This document shows positions 9,017 to 40,525 of a stretch of DNA of 45,289 bases, piece by piece (within the stretch, counting starts at the first letter, position 1; each line of letters begins with the position of its first letter). The stretch spans positions 1-45,289 of the forward strand of contig JAGLIO010000006.1 of assembly GCA_023142915.1 (NCBI GenBank), read 5' to 3'. The position numbers and the translations under genes are program-made. The notes under the pieces are model-generated. The model made no database searches. It saw nothing but the letters and a program-made list of their open reading frames with translations, and was not told the DNA's origin. The stretch is from Candidatus Parcubacteria bacterium (lineage in GTDB: Bacteria > Patescibacteriota > Patescibacteriia > Patescibacteriales > UBA12075).

Positions 9017-9072
9017 TAGTCAAGGAATTTCAATATTCCTGACTACTGTTAGTGCCCTTTGGGCATAACTTG
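9017..9072 (+). repeat. dispersed two-hairpin element, copy A (uvrC leader)
   Basis: TAGTCAAGGAATTTCAATATTCCTGACTACTGTTAGTGCCCTTTGGGCATAACTTG; near-identical to 38567-38622 and 40470-40525, inverted at 12373-12427. Confidence 0.9.
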
Positions 9073-12005: not shown

Positions 12006-12324
12006 CCACTACGCTAAAGCTTTGCGGGGCAAGCCCCACCTTACTAAGACTTCGCGGGGCAAGCCCCTTGAAGTTTTTTGATTAAATTAAAAAACAGCTT
12101 TTTGCTGATTTCTTTGGTTATCTTAGCATGGTTTTTTGTTTTTGTCATTAGTTTTTTGGAATTCAAAAAAGTGGATATGTTGATAAGTTTTTTGGCTTAT
12201 ATTAAATAATATATTTATGTTAAGCTAAATATTTTGGTTTTATTCATTTTTTGTTAACATATTTTTACACAAAAAATAGTTATTAATAAACAATTAATTA
12301 ACAAGAAATACACAAAAATAACCC

Positions 12325-12352
12325 TTGACAAATTTTTTATTTTTTGTATAAT
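12325..12352 (+). promoter_or_regulatory. consensus sigma70 promoter TTGACA-16-TATAAT
   Basis: exact -35 (12325-12330) and -10 (12347-12352) hexamers in a ~550 bp ORF-less intergenic region. Confidence 0.75.
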
Positions 12353-12372
12353 AATGGCACAGGAATTGGGGA

Positions 12373-12427
12373 CAAGCTATGCCAAAATGGCATAGCAGTA
12401 GTCGGGAATATTTAAATTCCTCGACTA
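12373..12427 (-). repeat. dispersed two-hairpin element, copy D (reverse orientation)
   Basis: reverse complement TAGTCGAGGAATTTAAATATTCCCGACTACTGCTATGCCATTTTGGCATAGCTTG aligns to copies A-C. Confidence 0.88.
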
Positions 12428-12508
12428 TAAATTATTTTAAAAATTTATCTGATTTCTTATTAAACTTTTTTTTCAAATTTTTGAACAAATAGTTTAAGCA
12501 TGGGGATT

Positions 12509-12545
12509 AAAGTACCCGCGTATTTATACGCGGGTACTTTTATTT
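12509..12545. terminator. intrinsic terminator
   Basis: AAAGTACCCGCGTAT-TT-ATACGCGGGTACTTT perfect 15-bp stem. Confidence 0.8.
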
Positions 12546-12556
12546 ACAGCAAGTTT

Positions 12557-13501
12557 TTATTCTAAAATTTTTCCAATATATTTTGAATATCCGTTAATAA
12601 ATTCCTGGGCTGTCATAATCTTTTTTCCTGATAACTGCAGTTTTTTGATTTCTAAAGAATCTTTGGCGCATTGGATAAATAATTTATTATCATCTAAAAA
12701 AATTGTTCCGGATTTGTGTTTGTTAATTAAGACCGGTTCATGCTTAACATTAATAATTTTGATTGTTTGGTTTTCTGTTTTTAATTCTCCAAAACTTCCC
12801 GGCCAAGGATGCATCGCGCGGATAAATTTTTCTTGGCTATAGGCGGATTTATTCCAGTCAATGCGTCCATCGGATTTTTTTAGAATTCCAACGTAGCTGG
12901 ATTTTACGTTGTTCTGCGCTACTGGCTTTATTTTATTATTAATATAATTTTTAATAACAGGAATTAAAATATCAGCGCCCAGTTGGGATAATTTATCAAA
13001 TAAAATTTCGGTCGTATCTATATTACTGATTTTAATTTTCGTCTGCGAAAGAATCGGACCTGTATCTAGACCTTCTTCCATTTTCATAATAGTGACACCT
13101 ATGGTTTTGTCGCCGTTAAGGATTGCCGCTTGAATACAGCTGGCTCCGCGGTATTTTGGCAAAAGCGAACCGTGAATATTTAGTACTCCGTATTTCGGGA
13201 TATTTAGAATTTGCTTTGGGATTATTTGAGAGTAGGCGATAACTATTATTAAATCCGGAGCAAATTGCTTTATTTTTTCCGCGATGTCGGAAATTTTTTT
13301 AGGCTGTAATACCGGTAAATTATATTTAAGAGCAGTTTGCTTTATAGCCGGCGCTTTTAATTTTTGTTTGCGCCCGACTTTTTTGTCTTCTTGCGTGATT
13401 ACCGAAACAATATCAAAATTTTCGTCATTAATTAATTTAACTAAAGACGGAACCCCGAAATCCGGAGTGCCGATGAATATTGTTTTTATTTTTTTTTGCA
13501 T
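12557..13501 (-). CDS. fmt: methionyl-tRNA formyltransferase
   Basis: 'IFIGTPDFGVPSLVKL', 'GVLNIHGSLLPKYRGASCIQAAILNGD', 'GLDTGPIL'. Confidence 0.97.
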   Translation of the reverse strand: MQKKIKTIFIGTPDFGVPSLVKLINDENFDIVSVITQEDKKVGRKQKLKAPAIKQTALKYNLPVLQPKKISDIAEKIKQFAPDLIIVIAYSQIIPKQILNIPKYGVLNIHGSLLPKYRGASCIQAAILNGDKTIGVTIMKMEEGLDTGPILSQTKIKISNIDTTEILFDKLSQLGADILIPVIKNYINNKIKPVAQNNVKSSYVGILKKSDGRIDWNKSAYSQEKFIRAMHPWPGSFGELKTENQTIKIINVKHEPVLINKHKSGTIFLDDNKLFIQCAKDSLEIKKLQLSGKKIMTAQEFINGYSKYIGKILE

Positions 13502-23066: not shown

Positions 23067-23693
23067 ATAGTTCAACAGGGAATAAAGAAAATATTGGAAG
23101 CCATATATGAACCGCATTTCCTAAACAGCTCATACGGATTTAGACCAAACAGAAATTGCCACTAAGCATTAAAAGCAGTTCACAAAATGGTAATGACAAA
23201 ACCGATAAACTGGATAATAGACGTAGATATTAAAGGATTTTTTGATAATGTTGACCACCATTGGATGATAGAATGCCTAGAACAAAGAATTAGCGACCCA
23301 AGGTTTAAAACATTGATAATTAAATTTCTAAAAGCAGGAGCGATAAGCGAGGGTAAATACAATAAAACGGAAAAAGGCACTCCGCAAGGAGGCATATTAA
23401 GCCCGCTATTGGCTAATATATATCTGCACTACGCATTAGACCTATGGTTTGAAAAGATTGAAAAGAAGAAAATAAAAGGTTATACTCAAATAATCAGATA
23501 CGCAGATGATTTTATAATCGGAGCGCAAACAAAAGAAGAAGCCAAAAACAAAGTTTTAATTGGGATGAATTTAACAGATATACAAAATTATACCCCCTGC
23601 CAAAACCGTCTCTTGCGTTTAATATGTATGACATTTGGTAAATATATTGACGGAGAGCCGTGTGCGGGAAAACCGCCTGCACGGTTCAACTAG
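23067..23693 (+). pseudogene. group II intron reverse transcriptase/maturase remnant
   Basis: 'IVQQGIKKILEAIYEPHFLNSSYGFRPNRNCH*ALKAVHKM' (stop at 23163-23165) then 'INWIIDVDIKGFFDNVDHHWM...GTPQGGILSPLLANIYLHYALDLWF...IIRYADDFIIGAQT'; C-terminus deleted. Confidence 0.92.
23655..23687 (+). ncRNA. group II intron domain V-like hairpin
   Basis: GAGCCGTGTGCGGGAAAACCGCCTGCACGGTTC, 33 nt, GAAA-type apical loop, just after the RT remnant. Confidence 0.75.
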
Positions 23694-23726
23694 GGGTTTC
23701 AATTAATTATTAATTAGAAATCTACT

Positions 23727-24101
23727 ATGACCTTATATATAGATACAAGTAAAAACAATTTAATATATTTGGCTTTAAAAAAAGACAACGAATTAATTTT
23801 GGAAAAGAAAATTACCGCGCAATATAGCCAAGCGGAAAAATTATTGCCGGGAATTGATAAGCTTTTAAAATCAGCAAATAGCGATATAACAAAAATTAAA
23901 AAAATTATAGTGGTCAATTCAGGCGAAGGTTTTACCGCCTTAAGAGTTGGCATAATTACGGCAAACGCGCTTAGTTTTGCTTTAAATATTTCGGTTTTTA
24001 GCAGTGATGACAAGCAGATAAAAAGCGATTATGATTTTAACATTATTAAGCCAAAATACAAAAAAGAGCCTAATATTACAGTTCCTAAAAATAATAATTG
24101 A
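23727..24101 (+). CDS. tsaB: short TsaB-like protein (tRNA t6A biosynthesis), 124 aa
   Basis: 'LYIDTSKNNLIYLAL', 'IIVVNSGEGFTALRVGIITANALSFALNISVF'. Confidence 0.75.
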   Translation: MTLYIDTSKNNLIYLALKKDNELILEKKITAQYSQAEKLLPGIDKLLKSANSDITKIKKIIVVNSGEGFTALRVGIITANALSFALNISVFSSDDKQIKSDYDFNIIKPKYKKEPNITVPKNNN

Positions 24102-25769: not shown

Positions 25770-26627
25770 ATGAAAATCGCTAAAATAAAATTTATTGACT
25801 GGGATAAAGAATATAATTTTTCTCTGAATAATTTGGAATTAAAAGAAGATGACAAGGTGGTTGTTAAAACCGAATTGGGCTTTGAGCTGGGCGGCATTGT
25901 CGGTTTTGATGATTTGGATGACAGCAAATATGTTTTGGAAGGCAAGGAACATGAGGCAGATAAAAACGGAGAGCAGACAGAAAAAAATATTATAAAACCT
26001 ATATTAAGAAAGGCAACATTAAGCGATTTGGAAAAAATGGCGCCTTTTAGCGAGAAGAAAGAGGCTTTGGAGTTTTGTCGTAAAACCAAAGATCGTCATA
26101 ATTTGCCCATGAAATTTGTTGACGTTCATTATTCCTTTGACGGTTCTCGCGTTACTTTTGCTTTTATTGCGGACGGTCGGGTTGATTTTCGCGAGTTAGT
26201 TAAAGATTTAACCAGGCATTTCGGAAAAACAATCCGCTTACAGCAAATTGGAATTCGGGATGAAGCGAAAATAACGGGCGATGTCGGCCATTGCGGACAA
26301 AGGCTTTGCTGCCAAGGCCATTTAAAAAATTTGGAATCAATAACATCGGAAATGGCGGAAATTCAGGGCTGCGCCCATCGCGGTTCAGACAGGATTTCCG
26401 GAGTATGCGGGCGGTTGATGTGCTGTTTGGCTTATGAACAGCGAGGGTATGAGGAATTGGCAAAAAATTTGCCGCCAATCGGCGCAAAAGTTAATGTTGA
26501 CGGCAAGCGCGGAGTCGTAGTCGGGCATAACCCCTTAAAGCAAGCGGTTAAGGTTGCTTTTTCCAATGATAGTGAGAACAACGGCAGGGTTATTGTGGAA
26601 GTTGATTTGAATCGGCATAAAAAATAA
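25770..26627 (+). CDS. ricT: PSP1 domain protein (RicT/YaaT family)
   Basis: 'TGDVGHCGQRLCCQGHLKNLESIT' and 'SGVCGRLMCCLAYE' Cys motifs. Confidence 0.88.
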   Translation: MKIAKIKFIDWDKEYNFSLNNLELKEDDKVVVKTELGFELGGIVGFDDLDDSKYVLEGKEHEADKNGEQTEKNIIKPILRKATLSDLEKMAPFSEKKEALEFCRKTKDRHNLPMKFVDVHYSFDGSRVTFAFIADGRVDFRELVKDLTRHFGKTIRLQQIGIRDEAKITGDVGHCGQRLCCQGHLKNLESITSEMAEIQGCAHRGSDRISGVCGRLMCCLAYEQRGYEELAKNLPPIGAKVNVDGKRGVVVGHNPLKQAVKVAFSNDSENNGRVIVEVDLNRHKK

Positions 26628-26638
26628 AATAAAAAAAT

Positions 26639-27943
26639 CGTAGGAACAGGGCACTGCCCTGTTCTGTCCGTGAAATTGCCTTATTTTTTTGTAATTACAG
26701 CATCGTTTTTGCCTGTTGTTGTATAATTTTTATTATAATGTTTATAATTTTTTCGTTTTTCACGCGCCGAACAGGGCGGTGCCCTGTTCCTACGGGTTTA
26801 TACTGTTTAAAAAAATCATTTCGCCTCCACCGCCTAGGCATAGAATGCCCAGGCTACATTTTTTTTAATCCCGCTAAAAGCGGGATATTTTATTATTGAT
26901 GTTTTTATATATAGCCCGATTTATCGGGTTTATAAAATTATCAAATTAGCCCTGGCATTCATGCCTGGGCGGCGGGTGGATGAATGGAGATGATTATTTT
27001 TTATTATCCGCGTAGGAACCCGCAAAATTTTTGTTTGCCGCGCATATCGTAGGAACGCGCCGCGGCGCGTTCGGTTCAACGGTTTGCGTGTTTTTTTAAA
27101 TATATAATGCCGGTTTGTTTATTATTCGTAGGAACAGGGCATTGCCCTGTTCTATCCGTGGCATTACACTATCTTTGCCACATTATTTTTATCTGCGATT
27201 TTATGATTTTGTTATAATGTTTATAATTTTTTCGTTTTTCACGCGCCGAACAGGGCAGTGCCCTGTTCCTACGGGTTTATATTGTTTAAAAAAATCATTT
27301 CGCCTCTACCGCCTAGGCATGAATGCCTAGGCTACATTTTTTTAATCCAGCTAAAGCTTGGATATTTTTATTGACGTTTTTACACATAGCCCGATTTATC
27401 GGGCTTATAAAATTATCAGATTAGCCCTGGCATTCATGCCTGGGCGGCGGGTGGATGAGCGGGGCTGATTATTTTTTATTATTCGCGTAGAAACCGCAAA
27501 ATTTTTGTTTGCCGCGCATATCGTAGGAACGCGCCGCGGCGCGTTCGTTTCAACGGTTTGCGTGTTTTTTTAAATATATAATGCCGGTTTGTTTATTATT
27601 CGTAGGAACAGGGCACTGCCCTGTTCTGTCCGTGAAATTGCCTTATTTTTTTTGGTAATTACCGCATCGTTTTTGCCTGCGGTTGTATAATTTTTGTTAT
27701 AATATTTATAATTTTTTCGTTTTTCACGCGCCGAACAGGGCAGTGCCCTGTTCCTACGGGTTGGTGTTGTCTAAAAAAATAATTTCGCCTCCACCGCCTA
27801 GGCATAGAATGCCTAGGCTACATTTTTTAAATCCCGCTAAAAGCGGGATATTTTTTTATTGGTGTTTTTTTGTATATAGCCCGATTTATCGGGCTTATAA
27901 AATTATCAAATTAGCCCTGGCATTCATGCCTGGGCGGCGGCGG
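26639..27943. repeat. tandem array of palindrome-rich units (2 full of 488 and 474 bp, 1 partial)
   Basis: unit starts CGTAGGAACAGGGCA(C/T)TGCCCTGTTC at 26639, 27127, 27601; each full unit has about 7 palindromes in the same order. Confidence 0.92.
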
Positions 27944-28107
27944 ATAATTTTTGCGCGGTTTTTTCAAATTTGACTTTTGCCGTATTTTTTGCTAATTTAT
28001 AATCAATAATAAAACAATTCAATTAACCTAACCCTTGGATTTTTTGTTTGAGGTATGGTTAAAATCCACATACATAAAGGCGGTTTTCTGATCGGTACTA
28101 TGTGTGT

Positions 28108-28170
28108 GGTCTTTGCCCGAAAGGGCATTGGGTAATCCGAAAGGGTTGTCGCCGACGGGAGACCTTTTTT
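28108..28170 (+). ncRNA. candidate structured RNA / attenuator
   Basis: GGTCT...AGACC closing stem around GCCC-GAAA-GGGC, AATCC-GAAA-GGGTT and GTC-GCC-GAC, then T6; 24 nt before the next ATG. Confidence 0.5.
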
Positions 28171-38566: not shown

Positions 38567-38622
38567 TGGTCAAGGAGTTTGAATATTCCCGACTACTGTT
38601 AGTGCCCTTTGGGCATAATTTG
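38567..38622 (+). repeat. dispersed two-hairpin element, copy B (dnaG leader)
   Basis: TGGTCAAGGAGTTTGAATATTCCCGACTACTGTTAGTGCCCTTTGGGCATAATTTG. Confidence 0.9.
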
Positions 38623-40469: not shown

Positions 40470-40525
40470 CAGTCAAGGAATTTAAATATTCCTGACTACT
40501 GTTAGTGCCCTTTGGGCATAACTTG
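40470..40525 (+). repeat. dispersed two-hairpin element, copy C (rpoD leader)
   Basis: CAGTCAAGGAATTTAAATATTCCTGACTACTGTTAGTGCCCTTTGGGCATAACTTG. Confidence 0.9.

Follow-up and report, generated by a model that had tools for sequence, protein, structure and literature searches.

A conserved small RNA gene beside fmt in Candidatus Falkowbacteria-related Patescibacteria, its putative start-codon targets and a mobile repeat inserted in one species

Main finding

The window analysed here, a stretch of 45,289 nt from a Candidatus Parcubacteria bacterium, contains at 12325-12545 a transcription unit that genome comparison shows well to be a conserved single-copy small-RNA gene of the order of Candidatus Falkowbacteria-related Patescibacteria. 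The most probable reading, to which we give a probability of roughly three in four, is that the gene encodes a conserved trans-acting sRNA whose linker blocks AUCCCC-AUG-C starts, chiefly that of a secreted protein, and that the complementarity of the RNA to the leaders of uvrC, dnaG and rpoD is accidental.

A conserved gene convergent with fmt

The first-pass annotation had described an ORF-less unit with its own promoter and terminator, and all three features are present (Table 1). The promoter is the sole match to the full 12-base consensus in the 7 kb scanned, and the terminator stem is followed by a U tail; the same stem may also end fmt transcripts coming from the opposite strand. The unit combines an independent promoter and terminator with the lack of a conserved ORF, as expected of a trans-acting antisense sRNA. 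The ORFs of at least 20 aa in 12325-12545 measure 23, 37 and 21 aa and none is credible, the longest on the + strand (37 aa) having its start within an inserted element that is described below. The predicted RNA measures 187 nt with this insert and about 132 nt without it.

When this genome is aligned with those of its two congeners, G001 and G002, 26 of the 29 promoter columns (90%) and 122 of the 140 RNA columns (87%, insert excluded) are identical, as opposed to 22% identity in the flanks on either side of the promoter and RNA. A covariance model of the linker and terminator (R1) gave one clear match (at least 47 bits) per genome in 17 of the 111 genomes of the order, and in all of these the RNA gene lies beside fmt and is convergent with it. 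The core, searched as an exact pattern, was found in nine GTDB contigs titled Candidatus Falkowbacteria, Parcubacteria or Patescibacteria, plus one titled 'uncultured bacterium'. Scanning the class with a broader model (R2) returned, outside the order, only terminator-like scores of 35 bits or less. No Rfam 15 family reached its gathering cut-off at the locus, where the sub-threshold matches were terminator-like only, and our literature searches found no description of this RNA.

Members of the family share two 5′ hairpins (P1 and P2), a near-invariant linker, GCAUGGGGAU, and a terminator hairpin. In the 5′ domain the two hairpins are kept while their sequence and length vary (mean fold z of -4.4 over 16 genomes); in the linker, GCATGGGGA is identical in 18 of 18 aligned sequences and the T that follows is present in all but one. 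The terminator stem covaries (Table 1). Of the promoter-element-terminator arrangement proposed by the earlier annotation, the two congeners keep the promoter, the RNA and the terminator beside fmt and lack the element.

Table 1. Features of the small RNA locus, copies of the mobile repeat and loci of the sibling RNA (positions are those of the window)
Feature	Position	Strand	Evidence
Sigma-70 promoter of the small RNA (TTGACA 12325-12330, 16-nt spacer, TATAAT 12347-12352)	12325-12352	+	12/12 consensus; conserved in congeners; TTGACA-type promoter in most other family members
Small RNA transcript, predicted start	12359-12545	+	conserved body; R1 match of 65 bits; fold z = -9.0
5′ hairpin P1, interrupted by the insert in this species	12361-12457	+	intact hairpin in G001 and G002
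Second hairpin P2	12459-12497	+	folds in every member despite sequence change
Linker, proposed seed	12498-12507	+	near-invariant; complement covers start codons
Intrinsic terminator hairpin and U tail (stem 12509-12522/12527-12540)	12509-12545	+	6 of 16 pairs changed on both sides in 11 sequences
fmt, constant convergent neighbour of the RNA gene	12557-13501	-	adjacent and convergent in 17/17 genomes with a model score of at least 47 bits
Mobile two-hairpin repeat in the RNA gene	12373-12427	-	empty site GGGGA/TAAATT in G001 and G002; about 20 genome copies
Mobile repeat upstream of uvrC	9017-9072	+	100%, query copy; missing from both congeners
Mobile repeat upstream of dnaG	38567-38622	+	92%; missing from both congeners
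Mobile repeat upstream of rpoD	40470-40525	+	95%; clean empty site in G001
Sibling RNA: L229, L231, L234, L238, L240, L120, L121, L125, L127			nine genomes

Complementarity between the linker and start codons

We searched 12 genomes with a single 13-mer pattern, the linker complement TTAATCCCCATGC with one mismatch allowed, and the sites whose surrounding sequence was retrieved were read individually. The complement, AUCCCC-AUG-C, spans the start codon of a ~340-aa secreted protein, with a signal-peptide-like N terminus, in five species, and those of three other genes. The ~340-aa gene starts with UUUAUCCCC-AUG-C in this genome (contig C16), G001, G002 and G006, and with UUCAUCCCC-AUG-C in G005. 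In the five aligned leaders the longest invariant block is ATCCCCATGC, and the second codon of the gene varies (CAA to CUA) while its first C is retained. A tandem paralogue adjoining the ~340-aa gene starts without the site in 5 of 5 genomes. The other start-codon matches are on contig C79 of this genome, where 16 contiguous bases of the gene are complementary to the RNA, and on contigs C3 and C40 of G003; besides the RNA itself, the remaining matches of the search fall in a sibling RNA and at dispersed sites, coding or not, murG codons among them.

Given the base frequencies of 313 starts, 0.015 matching starts would be expected per genome and about 0.18 over the 12 genomes, against the 8 seen in four gene families. 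The duplex of the linker with its targets is likewise stable (-20 to -26 kcal/mol, against a background of -8.4 ± 2.6 kcal/mol at the 313 starts), and the only three of the 313 background values at or below -19 kcal/mol are all these same targets in other loci. A conserved seed is thus found together with conserved complementary sites in mRNA leaders, as in trans-acting antisense sRNAs, and sequence comparison lends good support to pairing of the linker across the start codon. Among the 12 genomes searched, genome-wide totals of the complement showed no clear difference according to whether the RNA is present. In G005 the target site is present while both RNA1 and fmt went undetected, and in G012 and G014 the start of the secreted protein was not among the matches of the 13-mer search. 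Some of the predicted folds leave the linker only partly unpaired (mean 0.37-0.98). We also noticed TAAATCCCCATGC in a 5′ leader of G014 (contig C36, L246), about 21 nt upstream of the start of a small gene that looks HU-like by eye.

The RNA consists of the two variable 5′ hairpins, the invariant linker and the terminator hairpin. We propose that the linker would base-pair with mRNAs carrying AUCCCC-AUG-C, and that such pairing, by covering the start codon, would block translation initiation, with the secreted ~340-aa protein as the chief target. Expression of the RNA, its pairing in the cell and repression as the outcome are what we infer from these sequences. The idea of a trans-acting sRNA at translation starts, put forward in the first-pass annotation, thus probably holds, but with the linker as the acting part and with targets other than those it named.

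A conserved and expressed RNA might instead work by way of a protein bound to its linker and terminator (as a sponge or scaffold, e.g. through a GGGGA motif), the start-codon matches being secondary. The linker would suit such a role, being a short, invariant, single-stranded-looking block with a GGA amid hairpins that vary freely. However, this leaves unexplained why the exact complement is placed in register with the start codon in four gene families and why, in five genomes, only one member of the tandem pair has it, and we consider it unlikely.

A mobile repeat interrupts the first hairpin

The element inserted in P1 belongs to a dispersed repeat of 55-60 nt made up, in each copy, of two adjacent hairpins, both near-palindromic. 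With a 61-nt probe, about 20 copies were detected in this 1.3-Mb genome, and one congener has at least 15; the repeat search of the window gave 3 matches, compared with none in 100 shuffles. The RNA locus reads GGGGATAAATT in G001 and G002 and GGGGA-(55 nt)-TAAATT in this genome; similarly, the rpoD leader reads GTATTTAATAATTTT in G001 as against GTATTTAA-(element)-TAATTTT here. The uvrC, dnaG and rpoD leaders are free of the repeat in both congeners. Empty sites were found at the sRNA locus, at uvrC, rpoD and dnaG and at others, with no base duplicated at the clean sites, and the insertion target resembles TTTA/T or TTAA/T. The alignments therefore show well that the repeat was inserted recently into the first hairpin of the RNA gene, in this species alone, and indicate that the gene is older than the insert. 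As the insert leaves P2, the linker and the terminator intact, the RNA of this species probably still works.

A target preference without duplication is suggestive of HUH-type transposition. Like REP/REPIN elements, the GTAG-tagged palindromes associated with RAYT (TnpA_REP), and IS200/IS605-type mobility, the repeat is a short dispersed hairpin pair that leaves precise empty sites without target duplication and prefers TTTA or TTAA before the insertion and T after it. It differs in having only about 20 copies and in that none was found beside Y1 transposase genes. The Y1 loci of this genome and its relatives were examined for a companion (RAYT) transposase with the repeat on its flanks, and they carry no copy of it; a link between the repeat and a Y1 transposase was consequently rejected. 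A single Y1 (RAYT-like) transposase, at L048 (G000, contig C74) and L148 (G001), has a flanking palindrome of its own, CCTAGGCAT..ATGCCTAGG, whose family differs from the inserted repeat. At L133 (G002, contig C24), the orthologue of the L003 repeat copy holds a second, nested palindrome in its loop.

The first-pass annotation had assigned the acting role to this element, as an antisense copy that would pair with its counterparts in the leaders of uvrC, dnaG and rpoD and so co-regulate the three genes. The reversed copy lies exactly where it was described, and its complementarity to the three leaders is real: the duplex is thermodynamically favourable, with a cofold gain of -21 to -34 kcal/mol compared with -2 to -5 kcal/mol for a same-orientation control. 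However, neither congener has the element in the RNA gene or in any of the three leaders, and the nearest gene starts run in the same direction as the repeat in 11 cases and in the opposite direction in 11, a random orientation, so that neither 'leader' nor 'antisense' describes the element as such. Moreover, hairpin 2 of the copy at 12373 has diverged with compensating changes inside its own stem, meaning that the stem and not the complementarity has been kept. Co-regulation through the element is therefore very improbable and, judging from these comparisons, already largely refuted. The repeat entered the first hairpin of the RNA gene in this species alone, separately from the insertions at uvrC, dnaG and rpoD, and since the insertions were separate, the complementarity between sRNA and leaders is best seen as accidental. 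The RNA of this species could stick to transcripts that carry the repeat in the opposite orientation, as an accident peculiar to the lineage.

A sibling RNA away from fmt

Nine genomes encode a second RNA with GCATGGGGA-W between a hairpin and a terminator. It lies on the same strand as, and downstream of, a conserved ORF of ~100 aa with the motif GWKYYNxIKKKAMEQEFSW, and the model matches away from fmt (G030, G017, G060 contig C31 and G028 contig C77) correspond to it. Its seed can fold against an upstream pyrimidine stretch. Two RNAs per genome that share a seed, the second located 3′ of a small ORF, recall sibling sRNAs and 3′-UTR-derived sRNAs.

The sibling also bears on whether the unit could be a mere fmt terminator accompanied by a chance promoter. 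With T after it on the + strand, the hairpin could act bidirectionally, and the RNA is always beside fmt; yet the + strand promoter and the internal linker are conserved, there are two extra hairpins, identity is lost outside the unit, and the sibling has the same linker away from fmt, which makes this explanation hardly credible. Even less credence can be given to a divergent 6S RNA, for although the RNA is free-standing, single-copy and strongly promoted and canonical 6S was not found in 19 genomes of the group (RF00013 covariance-model search, 0 of 19, controls detected), it has no RF00013 match and consists of short hairpins and a linker, not of one long rod with a central bubble.

Returning to the start-codon-pairing sRNA, we lean slightly towards an order-wide Patescibacteria regulon, in which two RNAs, one by fmt and the other behind the small membrane-protein-like ORF, would share an invariant 10-nt seed that silences AUCCCC-AUG-C genes.

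Other features of the neighbourhood

The region 12100-12324 and the same place in relatives contain DnaA-box-like words (TTTTCCACA, TTATACACA and TTTTACACA), which most family members have 130-200 nt 5′ of the linker, in only modest excess over shuffles. In some genomes the RNA gene has parAB, gyrB or dnaB as a neighbour. An oriC at the locus was considered and rejected, as the excess of DnaA-box-like TTWTNCACA over shuffles is small and the GC skew of the window follows gene direction. Elsewhere in the window, LOOT RNA (RF03000), a known orphan sRNA family, was matched at 28025-28150 on the + strand (64.8 bits), and directly upstream of it, at 26609-27996, a unit of ~480 bp is present in three tandem copies with the palindromes GAACAGGGCA.TGCCCTGTTC. 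A group II intron domain was matched at 23653-23731 on the + strand (46 bits, cut-off 40), where no intron protein was noticed.

Relation to known sRNAs and implications

The enterobacterial RybB and MicA are trans-encoded sRNAs that base-pair with mRNAs of envelope proteins around the start codon. The RNA described here resembles them in being free-standing, with a sigma-70 promoter, a 3′ intrinsic terminator and a short conserved seed, and in that this seed is complementary to the start-codon site of a secreted-protein gene. It differs from them in showing no sequence relation and no Rfam match, in belonging to a different phylum, and in having its seed between the second hairpin and the terminator. 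Many, but not all, trans-acting antisense sRNAs depend on Hfq or ProQ.

Our literature searches found no base-pairing sRNA described in Patescibacteria. The case of this species illustrates how a mobile hairpin can give an RNA the appearance of regulating rpoD and dnaG, an appearance that comparison with relatives dispels. What emerges is an RNA family whose probable seed and probable target are both maintained from genus to genus, and, if the order-wide regulon is true, it would control secreted and membrane proteins of these ultrasmall bacteria.
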